Shown: positions 1,949 to 12,563, numbered from the stretch's first letter. The stretch: 35,446 bases of DNA from Candidatus Undinarchaeales archaeon (GCA_030753015.1 JASMDC010000037.1:1-35446); one strand, 5' to 3'. Notes: generated by a model from the letters alone, not told the origin. A program made the numbers and translations.

Positions 1949-4900
1949 TTAAGTCGTCTCCGTGATCTCGGAGTAGAAGTCCGAAAGCCTCTCGGGGAGG
2001 GCGTCCACGTTATCGAGCACACAGTAGTTACCGTGCCCGAACATGGTCTCCAGGTACTCGCCACCCCGGCTGTCGATGGCCATGGCATACGACTGGATGC
2101 CCATGTTGTGGCCCTCGTCGATGGCCTTGCGGATGTCGTTGAACACGTAGTCCTTGCCCTGCTTGTTGGGCGAGTCGCTGTAGTCGTTAGGCTCACCGTC
2201 GGTGAGGTAGAGGAATATCTTGGTGCGGGCGTCGGTCTGGTCGAGCTGGGCCATGGCGTGTCGCATGGCGGGGCCCATCTTGGTCATCGAACCGGGCTCC
2301 ATGCCCTCGATGCGGCCATGGGTTATCCCGTTGTAATCCTCCTCGAAGGATTTTACGCGGTAGACGCGCACGTCGTCCTTGCCCGACGTGTCGAATCCGT
2401 AGATGGCGAACTGGTCACCGAGATTATCGAGCGCCTCGCTCATGAGGATCATGGACTCTTTGGACTTCTTGATGATGTTGCCGTAGGTGGAGCCGCTCTG
2501 GTCGACAAGGATGCACACGGCCACATCGCGACCCTGCTTCCTCGACTCCTCGAAGATCTTGTCGTCCATGCCGTGGCCTGTTGCCCGGCGCTCGCCCCAC
2601 GCATCGGTGTAGGCGTCCATGTCCACGTCGGACCCCTCGGGGAGTCGGCGCTCCTTCTCGAGGTGGGCCGGTTTGAGCTCGGACATGGTGTCGATGATCT
2701 GGCGCCTGATCGTGTCCATGTCCCTGATTGTGGCTGAGTAGAACTCGGTGGAGGCCTTCTCGCGGATGATCTCTTTTACGGTGCAGAACTCGTAGAGGTA
2801 GTCGCTGAGGGTGGAGTCCCACTCGTCGTACTTGAACTCCTCGATGACCTCGTTGCGGTCCGTCGGATCGCCGCCACCGCCCTGGTCGGGATCGGGGGGC
2901 GCATCGCTGCCACCCTGGGGCTTGCCGCTGCCGCCCTGCTGCGGGTCGCCGTCACCGTCCTGCTGGTCGTCTCCCTGGTCGTCGCCGTCGCCACCGCCGC
3001 CGTCCTGGTCGTCGCCCTCGTCATCACCGGACTCTCCGCCGTCACCCTGGCCGTCCTGGGGCTCGCCGTCGCCGGACTCCCCTCCGCCCTGGCCCTCCTG
3101 TGGCTCGCCGTCGCCGCCGTGGTCGCCCACGTCGTCTCCCGGCTGCTGGTCCTGTGGCTCGGTGAGCTGGGGGAAGAGATCGGTGACAATGTCATAGACC
3201 TTGCGCGTGGCGCTCCATGTGTCGTACACAGTGCCCGGTTCGGATTCGGTCTTGTATATGTCGTAGCACTGGTCGAATGGTGCCTGGTACTGGGGATCTA
3301 TCTGGGTGACGGTCGTGCCCATCTTGACCTTCTGGAGGAGCGCGGACATGAACTGCTGCCCCGGGTCCTGGGCCTCGGGCCCCTCGAGAGGCTTCATGAT
3401 ATAAGCCGCGTTTGTGAGGTCCAGTTCCTCGGAGATGAGGCCGCCGTACTCGTCGCGGAGGTTGTGCTCGATGCGACCGTCCTCGAGCAGGTTCCAGATG
3501 TGCTTGGCAAGGCCCTGCTTCTCGTACTCTTTTACAGCTTCCTTGATCTCCACGGCGAAGGAGTCGTACTTGATGTGGGACATCTCATGGTCCATGAGGC
3601 CCCAGTAGAGCATGCGGTTCTGGTCGTTATCGGTGTACGCGTCCACGCGCTTGGGGATGAAGATGGTGTTGTTGTCAGTGTAGGCTATGGCGCTTCCCTT
3701 GACGATGTCCACGCCCACGGGTTTCTCGAGGATGCCGCCCACCCACTTGCCGGCGGAACCCTGGATGTCCTCGAAAGCCACGTAGTGGTACTTTTCCTTG
3801 AGATCGTCCATGAAGCCGCGGGTGAGCCCGAGCTTGAAGAACTTCTCCGCGGCGTCGACGCCGTGCTCCTTGTAGACGTCCAGGCCCTTCTCGGCCCAGT
3901 CCTGGAGGACACGACCGTCGAACTCCTTGAGGATGACGCCGAAGTTCTCCATGAACGCCTTGGCGAGCTTGGTATCGACCACCTCCACCTTCTGCTCGGC
4001 CTGGTAGACGGCTGCGAGCTGCTGTGGGTCCTTGACGGCCTCCATGGAGGTGATGGTGTTGTTGAGGTAGTTGTTCATCTGGGAGCTGTAATCGACGGAG
4101 AGCTTCTCTCCCAGGCCCAGTACGAAGTCCTTGATCATGTCGGGGAACTTGGAGAGGCGACCCAGCTCCTTCAGGTCGCTGATGGCGGCAGTGTCGTTCC
4201 GCTCGTAGATGGTGGCGTGGTAGTCGAAGAACTGCTGGCGGTCTTCGGGCTTGACTGTGCGGAAGAACGTCTCGGTGTTCTTGAGCAGGTCCTCCTTCCG
4301 GCCTTTGTAAGTGGTGCTGTCGAGCTCACCCTTCCAGGTGAGGTAGTCGGGCGCCGACATCTCGGCAAGGAAGGGTATCGAGCGCACAAAGGCACCGTAG
4401 GTAGCGGCATCGATGGCGTTCGAGGATGAGTAGTAGTAGCCACTGCTGGTGAAGTCGTCTTCGTTGATGGTGGTGCCCTCGCGGATGAACTGCTTGAGGC
4501 TGCGGTCGTTCATACCCTCCAGAGCGCGACCGTTCTCAAGGATGGCCCGGGCGAGGCTGGCGCGCTTCTTCTCGGTGGCCATGGTGGCCATCTCGAACAG
4601 GCGCCCCTTGTCGGTCACCTTCTCCAGGAGCTTGGCGTCCATGTGGTAGGGTGCGTACTCGTCCTTATCTGTGACCTCGTTGAGCTTGTAGGCGAGGGTA
4701 TTGAGGGTGTCGAGCTCTTCCTTTCCGAGGAAGGGAGTGAACGCGGCTGCCTTTTTGACCACCGTCTCCACGAGCTTCTCGTTGATCCCCTCGACGGCGT
4801 GGAGGTACTTGTCCTGTCCCTCCTGTTCGAGGGCGGCAAGCTCGTCACGGGAATGGTAGAGGACGGCCTTGCGGGCATCGTCGGTGGTGAGCCTGAGGGC

Positions 4901-6631
4901 GATCTCCTTCCATACCCCGAAGGCGTCGGGGCGGAGGATGTCGGTGATCCCGCCGGTGTGTGCGAAGTAGCGCTCGCCCACGTAGCCGTCGCCAGCAAGG
5001 CGCTTGTCCATAAGCTCCTTGCCGAAGGCCGCCCAGGTCTCGAGGTTCTCGTCGCCCTGACCGGGATCGTACTGCTCCTGCAGCTGGTTGAAGAACTCGG
5101 CGGCCGCCAGGCCGTTCGTCCCGGCGAGCTCGCGGGTGAGCTCGAAAGCCCGCTTGGTGGGCTTCCCCTCGAGGGTCGGGATGACCTTCTTGGAGTTCTC
5201 GAAGAACTTGTAGGCGGCGGGGTCGCCGGCGAAGACGTTGGCCGTCTTCACCCAGTCGAACATGAAGCGGTTACCGAGATCGTCGATGAGCTCCTTGGTG
5301 CGGTCGAAGTATGATTTCTTGAGCTGGTCGTCCAGACCGCGGCTGACATCGATCCACTTCCGTACATCCTTGAGAGAGCGGTCCTTGAAGTGGTCGTGGC
5401 TCTGGAGGACCTCCTTGGCAGCATCGCCCTCGCCCTCTTCCACAGCGTACTCCACCATACGGAAGAGCTTGCCGCGCTTGTGCCCGTCATAGGAGCGGAC
5501 GAACGTCTGTGTCCTGTCGAGCACGCGGTCGGCGACGTCAATGTCCTTCTGGGAGATGCGGTTGGCCACATCGCCGATCTGAGTGATCGTCTTGGCGTTG
5601 ACATCGCTCAGGGACGTCTTGGTCTTGTCCACGAACTTAACCGGATCGTAGTATGATGCACCGACATCGGCCCAAGCACTGAGCGTGGAGGCCTTGGCCT
5701 CCTCGATATACTGGCCCGCCTTGAAGGTGGCGGCGCCCATGGCTTCGTTCTGCTGGGCGACGTCCTTGACGATGCCCAGGACCTTGTCTCGGTCCTTGAC
5801 CTGTCTGAGAACGGCATAGGAGTCGTCGAAGTACCGCTTGCGCAGCTCCGGGTCGGAGAACGAGTCGGCGGTATCCTCCCAGGCAGCGACCGTGCCGGCC
5901 TCCTCCACCACGCCCCGGACGTCGCCGGAGGCGTTCATGAAGGAGTAGGCCAGGGGCTTGCTGTCCTGGTAGTATGATTCCATGCCCTCGATGACGTGCT
6001 CGCGCACGTCCTCGTCCAGGCGCTTGAAGGTGTTGGCGGCCTTGGTGAAGAACTGGCTGCGAGCAAGCTTGAACGAGCCATCCTCGTACTCCTTGCCCAT
6101 GGTGTAGATCCTGTCGTTCTGCTCATCGCTGAGATTGCTGAACAGGTCGTCGGCGTTAGTGAAGTAGGACTTCCCGTCAGCGGGTTTGTCTGCTGCGAGC
6201 TCGGCGGCCCGGCCTAGCACTGTGACGTACGCGTTCGGGTCCACCTTGTCCACAAAGGAGTCGATGGAGCGGGCCATTGTCGAGACATCGGAATTGTCAA
6301 CAGTAGAGATGAATGACGCGAGCTCACGGTGGGCGGGTGCGAGCTGTTCGCCCCGCTCAGCGAGCTTCTCCCACATCTCGGTGAAGTTCGAGACGTGGTA
6401 GCCGTACTCGGGCTTCTCCATGAATCCCAGGAGCTTGTCCCGGGCCTCGCTGTCGCTGAAGTGGGTGAAGACTTCTTTGGTCTTGTCGATGAACTTGCTC
6501 GCGTTCCACCTGTTGAGTCGCTCGAGCTTGTCCGCGACAGCGTTCCATTTGGTGAGCTGGTCGTCGGAGAGCCCCAACCCGGAGAGGTCGGGGCGTTCGA
6601 GAGGTTCTGTGGTGGTGGCGGAGGTATCCAT
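1949..6631 (-). CDS. Giant VWA protein with helical repeats, NorD/CobT/CoxE-like
   Basis: The 1560-residue protein probably partners the MoxR-type ATPase encoded 36 nt upstream, in an AAA+/VWA complex that activates or remodels a target. Residues 1 to about 900 are charged, predicted helical and loosely repetitive, with recurring F/Y-x-D/K-x-T/S-x5-L modules (for example KFIDKTKEVFTHF, KFVDKTKTSLSDV, SYFDRTKELIDDL). Near residue 1015 comes DHEMSHIKYDSF, a HExxH-like motif, followed by NLLEDGRIEHNL, as seen in NorD/CobT-type proteins. Residues of about 1155-1255 form an Asp/Gly/Gln low-complexity linker. The C-terminal 200 residues are a VWA domain with a MIDAS motif (LVDQSGSTYG, near residue 1377), a threonine-containing GSMTKMGPA segment and YLTDGEPND. 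No signal peptide or membrane segment is visible, so it is probably cytoplasmic. NorD and CbbO proteins are usually much shorter. The target is unknown, with no nitric oxide reductase, Rubisco or cobalt chelatase gene nearby. Confidence 0.8.
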   Translation of the reverse strand: MDTSATTTEPLERPDLSGLGLSDDQLTKWNAVADKLERLNRWNASKFIDKTKEVFTHFSDSEARDKLLGFMEKPEYGYHVSNFTEMWEKLAERGEQLAPAHRELASFISTVDNSDVSTMARSIDSFVDKVDPNAYVTVLGRAAELAADKPADGKSYFTNADDLFSNLSDEQNDRIYTMGKEYEDGSFKLARSQFFTKAANTFKRLDEDVREHVIEGMESYYQDSKPLAYSFMNASGDVRGVVEEAGTVAAWEDTADSFSDPELRKRYFDDSYAVLRQVKDRDKVLGIVKDVAQQNEAMGAATFKAGQYIEEAKASTLSAWADVGASYYDPVKFVDKTKTSLSDVNAKTITQIGDVANRISQKDIDVADRVLDRTQTFVRSYDGHKRGKLFRMVEYAVEEGEGDAAKEVLQSHDHFKDRSLKDVRKWIDVSRGLDDQLKKSYFDRTKELIDDLGNRFMFDWVKTANVFAGDPAAYKFFENSKKVIPTLEGKPTKRAFELTRELAGTNGLAAAEFFNQLQEQYDPGQGDENLETWAAFGKELMDKRLAGDGYVGERYFAHTGGITDILRPDAFGVWKEIALRLTTDDARKAVLYHSRDELAALEQEGQDKYLHAVEGINEKLVETVVKKAAAFTPFLGKEELDTLNTLAYKLNEVTDKDEYAPYHMDAKLLEKVTDKGRLFEMATMATEKKRASLARAILENGRALEGMNDRSLKQFIREGTTINEDDFTSSGYYYSSSNAIDAATYGAFVRSIPFLAEMSAPDYLTWKGELDSTTYKGRKEDLLKNTETFFRTVKPEDRQQFFDYHATIYERNDTAAISDLKELGRLSKFPDMIKDFVLGLGEKLSVDYSSQMNNYLNNTITSMEAVKDPQQLAAVYQAEQKVEVVDTKLAKAFMENFGVILKEFDGRVLQDWAEKGLDVYKEHGVDAAEKFFKLGLTRGFMDDLKEKYHYVAFEDIQGSAGKWVGGILEKPVGVDIVKGSAIAYTDNNTIFIPKRVDAYTDNDQNRMLYWGLMDHEMSHIKYDSFAVEIKEAVKEYEKQGLAKHIWNLLEDGRIEHNLRDEYGGLISEELDLTNAAYIMKPLEGPEAQDPGQQFMSALLQKVKMGTTVTQIDPQYQAPFDQCYDIYKTESEPGTVYDTWSATRKVYDIVTDLFPQLTEPQDQQPGDDVGDHGGDGEPQEGQGGGESGDGEPQDGQGDGGESGDDEGDDQDGGGGDGDDQGDDQQDGDGDPQQGGSGKPQGGSDAPPDPDQGGGGDPTDRNEVIEEFKYDEWDSTLSDYLYEFCTVKEIIREKASTEFYSATIRDMDTIRRQIIDTMSELKPAHLEKERRLPEGSDVDMDAYTDAWGERRATGHGMDDKIFEESRKQGRDVAVCILVDQSGSTYGNIIKKSKESMILMSEALDNLGDQFAIYGFDTSGKDDVRVYRVKSFEEDYNGITHGRIEGMEPGSMTKMGPAMRHAMAQLDQTDARTKIFLYLTDGEPNDYSDSPNKQGKDYVFNDIRKAIDEGHNMGIQSYAMAIDSRGGEYLETMFGHGNYCVLDNVDALPERLSDFYSEITETT

Positions 6632-6667
6632 CGTCAGGTCCGTGTTAGTATCTTGTACAGGACGTGT

Positions 6668-7771
6668 CTACTGCTGGGCCTCGGCTTCCGCCTCTGGCTC
6701 CTGGGCGACCTCACCGCGGTTGTACTGGCCGTCGATGACGTCGACCTGCCGCATGATGGCCTCGCGCACGTCGGAGTAGTCGGGCAGCGGTTCCGTGATG
6801 ACGCTAACGATACCCATCTGGCACGCGTCGTGGAATGCATAGCCTTGGCCCATGAGCTCGGCAGTGGCGATAAGGGTGCGTGTACCGGCTCCCTCCTTGA
6901 GCTCCTTCATCTTGCGTGTGAACACGCCGATCTCGACGAGCATCTGTGAGTCCTTCATGGCGACGTTGCCCTCGTGGGCGACGATCTGGGTCTCGAGCTC
7001 GGCCTGAGGTGACTTCATATCGCGAGCGTAGTCGATGTCGACTGCCATGAAGCGCTGCTGGAGCGAGGGTTTCAGCTGAGCGCGCTGGTAACCGGGATTG
7101 TAGGCTGAGACGAAGTAGAAGTCTTCGGCAGCGTGAACGATCTCGCCACCTTTCTTTTCCAGTGTGATCTTGCGCTGGTGGTCGGTGGCCTCGTTGACCT
7201 TCGAGAGCACGTCCTTGCGCGCCTCGGCGATCTCGTCCAGGTAGAACACACCGCCGTACCGAGCGGCCAGGGTCAGCGGCCCGTCCTGCCACTTGATCTC
7301 ATCGCCCTTGACGATGTAGCGGCCGATGAGGTCGTTGGACGACAGGTCCTCGTTCCCTATGGCGTAGAACATGGGCTGGTCCGTCTTGAAGCAGAAGTGC
7401 TCTATAAGACGTGTCTTGCCGCACCCGGTCGGTCCCTTGAGCATCATAGGTTTCTTGACCGCATAGGCGTCCATGAGCACGTCGAGCTCGTTCACATCTA
7501 CCTGGTTGCCGTCCACTACCTTGTGGTACTCCTTGACGGGTAGGTAGTATGGCTCCTTGGTGATCTTGTAATCGTCGATGTTGATCTCGTCCGGCGCCCC
7601 TAGATTGAGGTCGACCTCTTCTCCGGTGTCCAGGTACTTCGCGTGCACCTCGTTGGACCCGTTGTCGATACCCTCGATCTTCAGATCTCTTGCCCTGCCA
7701 GTGTTCTCGTCATAGATCTTGAGCGTTTCACCGACTGGAATAGTGATATCCTCGCTGATTTCTCCGTACAT
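6668..7771 (-). CDS. MoxR-class AAA+ ATPase, CbbQ/NorQ/GvpN-like
   Basis: The 367-residue ATPase shows Walker A GPTGCGKT (113-120), Walker B VFYLDE (175-180), a sensor-1 asparagine in SAYNPG (about 225) and a probable arginine finger in SLQQRF (240), all typical of the CbbQ/NorQ branch of MoxR ATPases. Such enzymes form rings that use ATP to activate partner enzymes together with a VWA protein, and here the VWA gene is directly downstream. An N-terminal region of about 75 residues looks beta-rich (EDITIPVGETLKIYD) and is not part of the usual CbbQ core. The C-terminus is a Glu/Ala/Gln tail. The start at 7771 is supported by GGAGAAGGTGG upstream. A TATA box at 7834-7843 gives a leader of about 40 nt. 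Confidence 0.85.
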   Translation of the reverse strand: MYGEISEDITIPVGETLKIYDENTGRARDLKIEGIDNGSNEVHAKYLDTGEEVDLNLGAPDEINIDDYKITKEPYYLPVKEYHKVVDGNQVDVNELDVLMDAYAVKKPMMLKGPTGCGKTRLIEHFCFKTDQPMFYAIGNEDLSSNDLIGRYIVKGDEIKWQDGPLTLAARYGGVFYLDEIAEARKDVLSKVNEATDHQRKITLEKKGGEIVHAAEDFYFVSAYNPGYQRAQLKPSLQQRFMAVDIDYARDMKSPQAELETQIVAHEGNVAMKDSQMLVEIGVFTRKMKELKEGAGTRTLIATAELMGQGYAFHDACQMGIVSVITEPLPDYSDVREAIMRQVDVIDGQYNRGEVAQEPEAEAEAQQ

Positions 7772-7833: not shown

Positions 7834-7843
7834 CTTATATACT
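7834..7843 (-). promoter_or_regulatory. TATA box of the MoxR-VWA operon
   Basis: On the minus strand this reads AGTATATAAG. Transcription would start near 7812 and leave a leader of about 40 nt that carries a GGAG/GGTGG ribosome binding site. Most genes nearby look leaderless, so this operon is translated differently. Confidence 0.6.
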
Positions 7844-7864
7844 TTCTCTTTAGTTGTCCCTTGA

Positions 7865-7885
7865 AAGGTACGAATTTCGTACCTT
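7865..7885. promoter_or_regulatory. Perfect 21-bp palindrome between divergent genes
   Basis: Arms AAGGTACGAA (7865-7874) and TTCGTACCTT (7876-7885) are exact inverted copies around a single T. The site lies about 25 bp upstream of the MoxR TATA box and about 30 bp upstream of the TATA-like element of the ATP-grasp gene. That position suits a homodimeric regulator acting on one or both genes. No regulator is encoded directly beside it. Confidence 0.6.
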
Positions 7886-7950
7886 ATTATAGACCCAGGC
7901 GACCTAGCGACATCCCTTTAAAGCTAGCCGGTCCTCCGGTCCAGAGCACC

Positions 7951-9246
7951 ATGCCCACCGTCCTCGTGCTCTGCTTCGATAGCCATGTGCGTCTCATCAG
8001 GGAGTTCTTCGAGCGCGATACCACCTACGACGCCGTCATCGATCCGCAGTCCGCTATCGAGCGCGATGGCGTGGGGGCCTACGTCGAGCGGATCGCAGAG
8101 AAGATACGATCGGGCCGGCTTTCGGTCGACGGTATCGCCACAACCACCGAGGACCTCGCGTTAGTTGCGTCCGTCATCGCACGTGAGGCCGGTCTTGCCG
8201 GACCCGCTCCGGGCGCTGTGTTCGCCTGTCAGAACAAGCTTGTGCAGCGCACGCTCCAGCGGGAATGCGCTCCCGAGGCCACGCCGGACTTCTTCCTGGC
8301 CCGGGACTGGCTTGTGGGAGAGGTCCCCGGTGTGCAGTTCCCTCTCTTTGTCAAGCCGGTGACCTCGGCCCTGTCCTTCTACTCCCACCATGTTGAGGAT
8401 GCGGGCGAGCTCCGACGGATCATACGCGAAGGACGCGATATAGTTCCTTCAGGCAACCGGCTCAACAGCGAGGTCATCGAGCTCGGTTACATCGACCACC
8501 CGTGGGCGCCCCTTCATAGTGAGCTGTTATGTGAGGGGGTGATCACGGGCACACAGGTCACCGTGGACGGCTATGTGCGAGAGGGGGGCGTTGTGCTCCT
8601 GGGGACGACCCTCTCGGTGTTCGTCCCGGGGACGATCAGCTTCTCACGCTTCGACTTCCCACATCAGTTCGATCCGGAGATCGACTCCCGGGTCGCTGGG
8701 CTCGTCCAGCGCGTGGTCACTCATATCGGTCTGGATGATACTCTGTTCAACATGGAGCTCATGGTGGACGGGGGAACGGGCGCGATAAGCATAGTCGAGC
8801 TCAACACCCGCCTCTCGTTCCAGTTCGTACCCCTCATCGAATGGGTGCGTGGCGTCAGCCCTCTCCGCATCATGTGCGACATAGCTGTAGGGCGAGAACC
8901 CAAAAGGTTAGCTACTGAAGGGGCCGGACCTTATTCAATGTCGAGCTCATGCGTCCTTCGCACGCCTGAGGACCGGTGGGTGGTCGACGTGCCCTCATCA
9001 GAGGACGTCGCGCGCATCGAGGCGGAGCGTCCCAATGTGCGTGTATTCCCCTTGGTGGCGCCAGGGACGCGCCTTTCGGACTACCTGCAGGACGCATATA
9101 CCTATCGGTACTGCCTGGTGAATATCGCTGGCGAGGACATCGACGAGGTCATCAGCACCCTTGCGGTCGTGAAGAATGGGCTAGGATTCCGGCTCGCACC
9201 GGCTGAGGACTCCCCTGCTTCGCCGGTCAAAAAAGAAAAAAGGTAG
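7951..9246 (+). CDS. ATP-grasp domain protein
   Basis: The 431-residue protein has the layout of an ATP-grasp ligase: an N-terminal alpha/beta segment (MPTVLVLCFDSHVRLIREF), a central lobe with the nucleotide-binding lysine in FPLFVKPV, and FNMELMVDGGTGAISIVELN near residues 265-285, whose Glu and Asn would bind magnesium. Such enzymes join a carboxylate to an amine or thiol through an acyl phosphate; the substrate cannot be read from sequence. The ATG at 7951 was chosen because an upstream CTTTAAAG element (about 7915-7922) would start transcription just before it, and the 30 extra upstream codons look non-coding. The C-terminus ends in a KKEKR tail. The gene is divergent from the MoxR-VWA operon and may be co-regulated through the palindrome. 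Confidence 0.75.
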   Translation: MPTVLVLCFDSHVRLIREFFERDTTYDAVIDPQSAIERDGVGAYVERIAEKIRSGRLSVDGIATTTEDLALVASVIAREAGLAGPAPGAVFACQNKLVQRTLQRECAPEATPDFFLARDWLVGEVPGVQFPLFVKPVTSALSFYSHHVEDAGELRRIIREGRDIVPSGNRLNSEVIELGYIDHPWAPLHSELLCEGVITGTQVTVDGYVREGGVVLLGTTLSVFVPGTISFSRFDFPHQFDPEIDSRVAGLVQRVVTHIGLDDTLFNMELMVDGGTGAISIVELNTRLSFQFVPLIEWVRGVSPLRIMCDIAVGREPKRLATEGAGPYSMSSSCVLRTPEDRWVVDVPSSEDVARIEAERPNVRVFPLVAPGTRLSDYLQDAYTYRYCLVNIAGEDIDEVISTLAVVKNGLGFRLAPAEDSPASPVKKEKR

Positions 9247-9437: not shown

Positions 9438-12400
9438 TCACACACGTCCGTCAACGAAGAGGTGGCGACCGCGCTCGGAGAGCTCCACGACCTTGCTCCT
9501 ACCCTTTTCGTGCTGGAGCAGGTGGCCGGCGCTCACGAGATTCCTTACCCGCTTGCGTACGGTGGGTTGGCTGATTCCCAGCTCAGCGCCGATTTCGGTG
9601 TTGGAGGGCTTGAGCCCGAGCAGGTTCCGCTGATATACGTACCGAAGGACCTCCAGAAGGTCCTCGGGAAGGCTTACCTTGATCATCGGATTGATCTCCA
9701 GACATTCCTTCTCGAGCAGCCTCAGCTCCCGCGGGTCCATGGTCGTAGGATCAACGGAGACAATGATGATGTGACCTTTGAGGTAGGCTACCTCACGCAG
9801 CCGTTCCACTAGAGACAGTGTCTCGCTGAACCCGATCTTCAGAACGAGGAAGTCCAGTCTGTCGATGAGAACCGTGTGTGCCCGTTGAAGCTCCTCGATG
9901 CAGTTCTCGACCTGTGCTGCTCGGGGTGCTATGCTACCAGCTCCTGCGCGGTCCGTGAGCCAATGGAACGTGTACTCCGCATCCAGATCCTTCTTGAACT
10001 CCTTCTCGGGGGCCCGGGAGATCACAAGGCCGGGGAATCCTGCCTTCAGGAGATCGGAGAACGCCTCGAGTGCAAGCCCTGCCGCTTGCTCTTGAGCGAG
10101 GTAGAGCTGTCCGTCCTCGAGGCTGTAGCGCATCAGGCGGCGTCGCATCTCCTCCTCGGAACGCTTGCGCTCGGTGATGTCCTTGAACACTGCAAGCCAT
10201 CCGGACGTAGCTGCGTCGGCACCCTTGATTGGCGCAGGTGTGATCAAGCAGTGGATGAGGTCCCCGTCCTTTCTCCGCAGGGCACCTTCGAACTCACCCT
10301 CCCCGCCCCGTTCTTCGAACACGTACCGTTTGAAGAGTGCCATGGCCCTGTCCCTCGTCCCCTCGTTCCAGAACGGGAATGGCGGCTTGATACCAACGAG
10401 CTCCTTCTCACTGAATCCCGTCATTGAGCAGAAGGCCGGGTTCACGTACGTTGTCATTCCATCGAGGTCGACGAGGAGGAGACCGTCCTTCATGGACTCG
10501 TGAAGGCTTCTGGAGAACGCCTCCTGCCTGACGAGCTGCTCCTCGGCCCTCTTGTGCTCGGTGATGTCCCGCCAGATGCCTTGGATGAAGGTCTTTCCCC
10601 CGGCCTGGATGGGCCTGGTGCTCACCATGATAACACGCGTCCTGCCGTCCTTTGTCCGGTGCTTGGTCTCGAAGAGGTCGCCACCCTCTTTCGTGATCTT
10701 CTTGATGTGCTCTGTGGTCTCCTCGGGGGACTCGATGACCTCGATGTCCGCGAGCGTGAGCTGAGCGAACTCCTCACGGGAATATCCTAGGTTCTTATGG
10801 GCCCGCTCGTTGAACTCGGTGAACGTCTTCGAACCAGTATCGATCAGAACGATGGAGTCTGCTGCCTGATCGAAGATGGCGCGGTATCGTTCCTCTGACT
10901 CACGCAGGGCCTTCTCCGACCTGGTACGCTCCGTGATGTCGCGAACGTAGGCGTGGACGAGCCGCTGTCCACCGACAGATGCTACCCTGAAGCTCACCTC
11001 TGTCGGGAACTCGGTACCGTCCTTACGTCTACCGGATGAACCGATGAACAGGCCCTCCTTCTTGAGCTGCTTCCTGATTGTCCGGGGGAGCGTGCCCGCG
11101 ACGTCATCCGGTACGAGGTCTATGGCGTTCATTCCACGAAGCTCGACCTTGGAGTAACCGAACATCTCGCAGGCAGTAACGTTACAGTCGATGATGTTCC
11201 CGTTGAGGGTCTCGAGGAGAACGGCGTCGGTGGACGTCTCCACGAGCGTCCTGTACTTCTCCTCGCTTGCCTTGATGGCCTGCTCGGCCTTCTTGCGTGC
11301 AGTGATGTTGCGGATCATGATGAGCACGGTGTCCTTGCCGGACGTGGCCATCCTCGCCTCGAATTCCCGCTCATCGCCACCAACCGTGAGCTTATACTCG
11401 TACACCTGCAGTTCACCGGTCTCCAGGCATTGCTTCATGTGACGCGTCGTCAAACGGGCAAGGTCACGCGGGAGGATGTCGTTCACCTTCTTTCCCAGGA
11501 ACTCCTCGGGAGTCGCATAAAGATCATCACTTCCGCCCTTGTAACTGATGAAAGTACCATCCTTGTGGACCTGGAACATGAGGTCGGGCATCGCGTCGAG
11601 GATGGCACGGGTCTTCGACTCGCTCTCCGCCAAGGCCGCCTCGGTCCTCTTTCGCTCACTGATGTCACGAGCGATGCCCATGCACACGCTCCTGCCATCG
11701 ATCGTTAAGGGGAATCCCTTCACCTCGACCTCGGCCATGCTTCCGTCCTTCCGGGCCAGGGTGACGGGGAGCGCATCGGTCGCTTCCCCGGTCCTTGCGA
11801 GATCAGCCAATACCTTTATCGCGTCCTTGATGGTCTTCTTAGTGATCAGGTTGAGCGTCAGGAAGCTCTTCCCGATCAGCTCCTCCTTCTTGTAGCCTAC
11901 CAACCGTTCGGCGGCCTCGTTGCCGTCGATGAACACCCCTTTCAGGTCGTGGAGGTAGATCGCGTCCGGCGACCTCTCGAAGAGGGCCCTGAACCGCTCT
12001 TCGGAGACACGTAGCTCCTCTTCGGCCTTCTTACGCTCGGTCACCTCACGCTCCAGTTCAACGGTCTTTGCCTGCAGTTCGGCAACACGCTCGTCCACCA
12101 AGTTTTGGAGGTGGTCCCGGTGATGCTCGAGCTCCTCTTCGGTATGCTTGCGCTCGGTGATGTCCCGGAGGATGCCCACTGCACCGATGATGCTCCCGCC
12201 CTTCCGGACGAGATGGTTGCTCGCTTCCACGGGGACGGTGGTGCCGTCTTTACGGATGAGCTCGAGAGTGATCAGTGGGCTCTCCTTGCCCTTCGTGACA
12301 GCGTCGGTGATCAACTTGGCGATCCGGGGTATCTCCCTGGAACTGAGAACACCGAGCTTGAGGACGTTCCGACCGATGACCTCTTCCTGCGAGTAACCGA

Positions 12401-12563
12401 CGAGGTTCTCCACACGCGGATTCACATCGATGACGGTGCCTGTGCGGTCGATGAACACCACCAGGTCGTTGATGCTCCCGCATATCTCTTCGTGGAGCTC
12501 AAGCAGGACGGTACCCGGCTCGTGCTCTACCGGGATCTCGTCCTTTCTCTTTGTCGAAGGCAT
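9438..12563 (-). CDS. Six-PAS, DUF835, winged-helix sensor-regulator
   Basis: This 1041-residue protein looks like a one-component sensor and transcription regulator. Six PAS domains follow each other at about residues 25-140, 186-305, 316-423, 433-546, 557-670 and 680-800. Most end in the D-I-T/S-E-R/H-K linker typical of PAC motifs. A coiled coil of about 40 residues separates PAS1 and PAS2. Residues of about 810-970 match a DUF835 domain (ITHWLTDR-like segment, then VLIDRLDFLVLKIGF). The last 65 residues form a winged helix-turn-helix (TEIGAELGISQPTVRKRVRNL). There is no histidine kinase H-box or ATPase domain, so phosphotransfer is unlikely; PAS domains probably sense redox state or small ligands. 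No membrane segments are seen. ATG 12563 has GGGGGATC before it. A TATA box at 12639-12648 and TGAAA arrays on both sides suggest autoregulation. Confidence 0.85.
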   Translation of the reverse strand: MPSTKRKDEIPVEHEPGTVLLELHEEICGSINDLVVFIDRTGTVIDVNPRVENLVGYSQEEVIGRNVLKLGVLSSREIPRIAKLITDAVTKGKESPLITLELIRKDGTTVPVEASNHLVRKGGSIIGAVGILRDITERKHTEEELEHHRDHLQNLVDERVAELQAKTVELEREVTERKKAEEELRVSEERFRALFERSPDAIYLHDLKGVFIDGNEAAERLVGYKKEELIGKSFLTLNLITKKTIKDAIKVLADLARTGEATDALPVTLARKDGSMAEVEVKGFPLTIDGRSVCMGIARDISERKRTEAALAESESKTRAILDAMPDLMFQVHKDGTFISYKGGSDDLYATPEEFLGKKVNDILPRDLARLTTRHMKQCLETGELQVYEYKLTVGGDEREFEARMATSGKDTVLIMIRNITARKKAEQAIKASEEKYRTLVETSTDAVLLETLNGNIIDCNVTACEMFGYSKVELRGMNAIDLVPDDVAGTLPRTIRKQLKKEGLFIGSSGRRKDGTEFPTEVSFRVASVGGQRLVHAYVRDITERTRSEKALRESEERYRAIFDQAADSIVLIDTGSKTFTEFNERAHKNLGYSREEFAQLTLADIEVIESPEETTEHIKKITKEGGDLFETKHRTKDGRTRVIMVSTRPIQAGGKTFIQGIWRDITEHKRAEEQLVRQEAFSRSLHESMKDGLLLVDLDGMTTYVNPAFCSMTGFSEKELVGIKPPFPFWNEGTRDRAMALFKRYVFEERGGEGEFEGALRRKDGDLIHCLITPAPIKGADAATSGWLAVFKDITERKRSEEEMRRRLMRYSLEDGQLYLAQEQAAGLALEAFSDLLKAGFPGLVISRAPEKEFKKDLDAEYTFHWLTDRAGAGSIAPRAAQVENCIEELQRAHTVLIDRLDFLVLKIGFSETLSLVERLREVAYLKGHIIIVSVDPTTMDPRELRLLEKECLEINPMIKVSLPEDLLEVLRYVYQRNLLGLKPSNTEIGAELGISQPTVRKRVRNLVSAGHLLQHEKGRSKVVELSERGRHLFVDGRV

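Follow-up and report, generated by a model that had tools for sequence, protein, structure and literature searches.

Two genes lie on one strand near the left end of the stretch of DNA analysed here (the window), which is 35,446 b long and constitutes the complete contig C48 of a 3.85-Mb archaeal assembly. They code for a CbbQ/NorQ-family AAA+ ATPase and a VWA protein of 1560 aa, with the ATPase gene upstream and 36 nt between the two ORFs. A TATA-box-like motif, TATATAAG, is a candidate archaeal promoter ahead of the ATPase gene, and the two genes therefore probably form a single two-gene operon. The GC content of the pair, 0.61, matches that of the remaining window, 0.60, and the right part of the window codes for archaeal-type ribosomal proteins, SecY, and TBP. 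Coordinates of the features of the pair are collected in the table.

Table. Features of the ATPase-VWA gene pair (window positions; aa numbering is that of each protein)
Feature	Position	Strand	Basis
VWA partner gene, 1560 aa, ATG start; arm, HExxH domain, acidic linker, VWA	1949-6631	-	ORF, family matches, and homologous pairs
VWA domain, NorD/CbbO type including finger region, about aa 1260-1557	1961..2854	-	sequence and model
Acidic low-complexity linker, aa 1172-1258, 83% G/D/E/Q	2858..3118	-	composition; pLDDT about 30
HExxH domain, aa 965-1170; resembles minigluzincin selecase and the CobT N-terminal family weakly	3122..3739	-	motifs and profile
LLEDGRIE motif (EDxR), aa 1048-1055, possible third metal ligand	3467..3490	-	sequence
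HEMSH motif, aa 1015-1019, true HExxH	3575..3589	-	sequence
Helical-repeat arm, aa 1-960	3752..6631	-	arm-arm similarity; all-helical model at pLDDT 40
ATPase gene, CbbQ/NorQ-family AAA+, 367 aa, ATG start	6668-7771	-	ORF and family matches
Walker A GPTGCGKT, aa 113-120	7412..7435	-	alignment with relatives
ATPase N-terminal extension, aa 1-66, beta-rich by eye	7574..7771	-	missing in 17 CbbQ/NorQ relatives aligned
TATA-box-like TATATAAG, 63-70 nt 5' of ATPase start	7834..7841	-	motif match only; candidate promoter

Several neighbouring ORFs are of note in their own right. A DDE transposase ORF (PF01609; 3-1592) lies at the contig edge, immediately beyond the 3' end of the VWA gene and in the opposite orientation and, as the window is the entire contig, nothing is visible past it. 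Divergent from the pair is an ATP-grasp protein (7861-9246) that bears a weak resemblance to the N-terminal part of PRK02186, an argininosuccinate lyase family; it was considered as a client and dropped, as it is found beside none of the pair's relatives examined. The region at 9438-12563 codes for a protein of 1041 aa that combines six PAS-type domains and DUF835 with a winged-helix region at its C terminus, a candidate one-component sensor-regulator. PADLOC has no model for the VWA protein and gives only marginal AAA matches for the ATPase, and a VMAP-like gene is not recognised within the window. The 3.85-Mb assembly (G000) compares with 0.6 to 1.1 Mb in nine other genomes of its phylum, and its placement may merit a check; an archaeal 16S rRNA was looked for in this assembly and not found.

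By its sequence, the ATPase belongs to the CbbQ/NorQ (CGN) subfamily of MoxR AAA+ ATPases. It matches AAA_5 (PF07728, 1.9e-30) and CbbQ_C (PF08406, 3e-16, above cut-off), and its best sequence relatives in the PDB are CbbQ 5c3c (6.9e-61) and NorQ 9qhd (6.5e-49). A CbbQ that shares 44% identity with it is encoded directly after two ORFs of 474 and 134 aa, whose sizes and order suggest RuBisCO subunits. In addition to Walker A, it keeps Walker B (FYLDEI), the sensor-1 N (SAYNPGYQ), and the R of QRF, with the first R of RQRF replaced by Q. Alignment with 17 relatives shows ∼65 additional residues at its N terminus, 13 residues inserted ahead of Walker A, and a short tail at its C terminus; the absence of the extension from all 17 bears out a remark in an earlier note on this DNA that the N terminus of the ATPase is unusual.

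The C-terminal VWA of the 1560-aa protein is NorD-like in both sequence and model. The sequence matches PF00092 (1.9e-7) and PDB NorD 9qhd (3.5e-35), and the model matches NorD with a Foldseek value of 6.5e-17 and a VIA-align Z of 26.3 to 9qh6 over 253 aligned residues. The MIDAS is complete, with DQSGS at 1377-1381, T1450, and D1478 (DxSxS..T..D). In a VWA tree the protein forms a single long isolated branch of unsure placement, and its function may thus have shifted.

Preceding the linker is the HExxH domain. The earlier note had listed Walker A and B, MIDAS, LLEDGRIE, and an HExxH-like site as hallmarks of an AAA+/VWA machine; all are found, and the last is a true HExxH (HEMSH). Both HExxH and EDxR are kept in the f29 family of archaeal pairs, a Fraserbacteria protein, and a Salmonella genomic-island VWA protein (identity ∼20-25%), and CbbO, NorD, and the f4 archaea have this motif pair in degenerate form. 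A six-sequence profile of the domain finds MJ1213, which we take to be the minigluzincin selecase, weakly (E 0.004) and with an alignment limited to a strand and the helix that carries HExxH; used as a single query, the window sequence does not recover this match. The HExxH region of two family members matches CobT at 5e-6. In the predicted model of aa 965-1170, a strand and the HExxH helix are accompanied by a long helix bearing E1050, and VWA domains take up the Foldseek and VIA lists for the C-terminal model, which bear on the VWA only. Together, motifs, profile, and model are suggestive, and no more, of a putative gluzincin-like metal site. In two unrelated genomes (L112 6178-9973 and L113 4148-6623) the arm/VWA gene is broken into two ORFs that overlap by 14 to 20 nt, the break falling after the HExxH helix and before EDxR, which could be a true fission, a frameshift, or a programmed frameshift.

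The remaining N-terminal portion, aa 1-960, we accept as a degenerate helical-repeat arm, in agreement with the long helical region that the earlier note saw in front of the VWA. The arm is homologous to the arms of free-standing relatives beyond chance, as judged by sequence: BLAST of aa 1-895 against the relatives' arms gives 38 HSPs (the best, to L057, at 7e-6) and the reversed sequence gives 1. The relatives' arms contain a 37-aa repeat, xxxWxxxGxxl...A..YF. An HMM of this repeat detects the last repeat of the 1560-aa protein clearly (hit at aa 909-922; repeat about aa 909-945) and others weakly, and its whole-arm score of 8.1 exceeds the highest value from 200 shuffles, 2.7. Self-comparison of the arm points to modest internal similarity: it yields six off-diagonal HSPs, where 40 shuffles average 0.2 and never exceed 2, but the best bit score is no better. 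If the same 37-aa period is assumed, the arm would hold ∼24 units, a figure that is arithmetic and not a count. As to the profile search and structure prediction of the arm proposed in the earlier note, Pfam, NCBIfam, and PADLOC are silent, and a fold prediction (980 aa, five sequences) is all-helical (63% helix) with very low confidence (mean pLDDT 40), a model too poor to show a solenoid.

Pairs of this kind are widespread, and most stand alone. A match is present in 28 of 394 archaeal genomes sampled, in 13 of 23 genomes of the phylum of G072, and in 13 of 371 of the phylum of G230, where some of the proteins are 1223 to 1409 aa; bacterial relatives are in Chloroflexota, Acidobacteriota, Fraserbacteria, Proteobacteria, and on a Miltoncostaea plasmid. 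Many archaea and certain bacteria pair NorQ-like ATPases with helical-arm VWA proteins of 780 to 1409 aa, usually with no conserved neighbour beside them, and the arm of the 1560-aa protein is the longest within the set compared. None of the nine further genomes from the window's phylum has a close homologue, and exact-pattern searches of genome and viral contigs find none. L110 and L111 have the gene order ATPase, a 465- to 481-aa helical ORF, and an 804- to 807-aa VWA ORF; since the arm is fused in the window's protein and is a separate ORF between ATPase and VWA in these loci, it is a module of the same machine, which indicates that it works with the VWA. In small-genome archaea of the phylum of G230, a conserved protein of 182 to 197 aa with the motif HFFPD and no Pfam family is encoded directly upstream of the ATPase (L060 13741-14334, L110 1975-2526, and L111 636-1184) and is a candidate third component.

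A survey of the neighbourhoods of homologues for a conserved partner, as proposed in the earlier note, shows that most relatives lack one; pairs of two families, f4 and f119, are associated with a divergent thermosome. In seven f4 genomes and one f119 genome (G010, G072, G306, G148, G341, G092, G235, and G375; loci L063, L065, and L074-L079) the pair is followed on the same strand, mostly within ∼10 nt, by a group II chaperonin gene (PF00118, 1.8e-137). These linked chaperonins form a divergent thermosome clade, of which G112, G253, G217, and G130 have unlinked copies; within the phylum of these genomes the clade is represented in 12/12 pair-positive and 0/4 pair-negative genomes examined (Fisher p 0.0005, uncorrected for kinship; one of the four pair-negative genomes is only 82% complete). 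On contig C43 (L001), the window's own genome has a thermosome gene followed on the same strand by genes for a classical MoxR ATPase (329 aa, PF07726) and a DUF58-like VWA protein (323 aa), both assigned by sequence, a second chaperonin-MoxR-VWA adjacency that involves a different MoxR subfamily.

No client enzyme is encoded within the window, that is, on the whole contig, as the earlier note had stated. That note also allowed for an enzyme just outside, which could make this an ordinary NorQD or CbbQO; a neighbour is possible where the contig ends at the left, and there is none inside the window. RuBisCO genes do not adjoin the pair, and the sole RuBisCO of the genome lies on contig C106 (L071 1366-3048). 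Its large subunit is 560 aa with the C terminus SEHEKA, has ∼90 extra N-terminal residues, and contains the catalytic motifs KPKxGL, KDDE, and SGG.

With the gene pair, its ATPase family, a NorD-type VWA, intact catalytic and MIDAS motifs, and arm homology all in evidence, we favor the interpretation that the pair is a free-standing protein-remodelling machine of the NorQD/CbbQO type (probability about 0.65), and the relatives without a neighbour enzyme, which share the two-gene order, count for it. The NorQD cryo-EM model, in which the finger sits in the pore, the linker is stretched, and the N-terminal domain is a second leverage point (PMC13036017), provides the template for how such a machine may work, together with CbbQO, in which there is one CbbO per CbbQ hexamer and the MIDAS binds RuBisCO (PMC4660213); by analogy with these we infer the ring, the finger in the pore, the MIDAS-client contact, the twisting, and all dynamic steps. 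The ATPase would form a hexameric ring plugged by one copy of the VWA protein via its VWA finger, with the MIDAS metal site pointing outward to bind an acidic residue of the client. The arm and HExxH domain, tied to the VWA by the acidic flexible linker, would be a second client-binding point, and ATP-driven rotation of the VWA against the arm would pull on the client, such that it is opened, activated, or metallated. Docking of a client by the arm is plausible and agrees with the proposal that the N-terminal domain of NorD, which varies in length, sets client specificity (PMC9976466). Against the remodelling reading, the client is unassigned in both window and genome, and the retained HExxH could mean that the protein is a peptidase rather than only a remodeller.

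The alternatives differ mainly in what is acted on. The pair may insert metal into, or activate, a metalloenzyme encoded elsewhere, in the way that NorQD acts on cNOR or CobST on cobaltochelatase, which would suit a NorD-type VWA as the closest solved structure and the relation of the HExxH region to the CobT family in two relatives. However, a common fold names no client, no metalloenzyme adjoins the pair, and the genome (98.9% complete) has no COX1/NorB-family gene, so that NorQD-type use is excluded for that client and neither cNOR nor a heme-copper oxidase is available; we regard this alternative as rather unlikely. A role as activase for the RuBisCO of the same genome is very improbable, even with a large-subunit gene on C106, a nearest CbbQ that is RuBisCO-linked, and RuBisCO in 20/24 pair-positive versus 13/26 pair-negative archaea tested, an association (Fisher p 0.018, uncorrected for kinship) that is weak and confounded by kinship. 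The genes are unlinked, the pair is present without RuBisCO in G010, G026, G130, and G230, and the SEHEKA terminus lacks the C-terminal HK/R motif that CbbQO requires on RuBisCO (PMC4660213, PMC8718961).

The ATPase-VWA-thermosome operons of eight genomes in two families, and the co-occurrence with the divergent thermosome in another archaeal phylum, raise the prospect that the pair serves a group II chaperonin in assembly, opening, or client hand-over. The window's pair is not beside a thermosome, though, and the three thermosomes of its genome are all canonical, with none in the divergent clade, so the link seen in the other phylum is not transferable to it; given also that the pair-negative sample amounts to four genomes, we think such a role improbable here. 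Equally doubtful is an ATP-driven metallopeptidase, in which the HExxH/EDxR domain would cut clients presented by the ring and VWA. Conservation of both motifs from f29 archaea to the Salmonella genomic island and the weak profile match to selecase speak for it, but that match spans just a strand and the HExxH helix and is missed by the window sequence alone, and the CbbO and NorD lineages, which have been studied by experiment, function although their site is degenerate. A broader proposal, also improbable in our estimate, is that free-standing archaeal pairs constitute a distinct functional class, in which a NorQ/NorD-type motor whose arm has a live gluzincin-like zinc site would act alongside a group II chaperonin in protein quality control or the assembly of complexes, and not on a single metabolic enzyme.

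Overall, we consider the pair to be a known kind of machine that is special by degree, in arm length, isolated branch, ATPase extension, and retained metal-site motifs. The earlier note's suggestion of a new subtype holds only in part. The literature searched describes no homologue of this length whose target is known, and homologous arms occur in other free-standing pairs. As such arms are shared and CbbO itself is ∼790 aa, a missing adjacent client is common in the family and does not mark a new subtype, although one with its own client class is possible. The well-established clients of CbbQ/NorQ-type machines are only two, RuBisCO and nitric oxide reductase, and the relatives show that the same machine exists with neither client in numerous archaea and certain bacteria, where the arm is longer, the HExxH is retained and, in one phylum, a dedicated thermosome accompanies it. 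They thus offer testable candidates for the purpose of the arm and for further targets of such motors.

Among known systems, NorQ-NorD shares the ATPase family, a VWA with finger and MIDAS (E 3e-35; Z 26), the ATPase-then-VWA order, and a flexible linker before the VWA, but NorD is ∼640 aa with neither arm nor HExxH, and its client gene norB is adjacent. CbbQ is the closest ATPase, and CbbO has the end of the same arm, an HExxH-region domain with LFEDARVE, and a VWA; in contrast to the 1560-aa protein, it has lost the HExxH, has a shorter arm, and adjoins RuBisCO genes. CobS-CobT is likewise an AAA+/VWA pair, related through the CobT-family match noted above, but the VWA matches CobT_C at only 0.0018 (18.4 bits, below the cut-off of 21) and the ATPase matches CobS at 0.005 (16 bits against a cut-off of 558). 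Midasin/Rea1 has six AAA modules in one eukaryotic chain and acts on pre-60S ribosomes, but its AAA domain is related by sequence, its MIDAS domain is the next structural match after NorD, and it too has a long linker between motor and VWA. The free-standing archaeal NorQ/NorD-like pairs (f29, f4, and others), for which no name was found in the literature searched, differ in having VWA proteins of 780 to 1409 aa, ATPases of 270 to 300 aa that lack the N-terminal extension and, in f4, the thermosome link, but they share with the window's pair the two-gene arrangement, the helical arm, in f29 the HExxH domain, and mostly a setting apart from any client gene.
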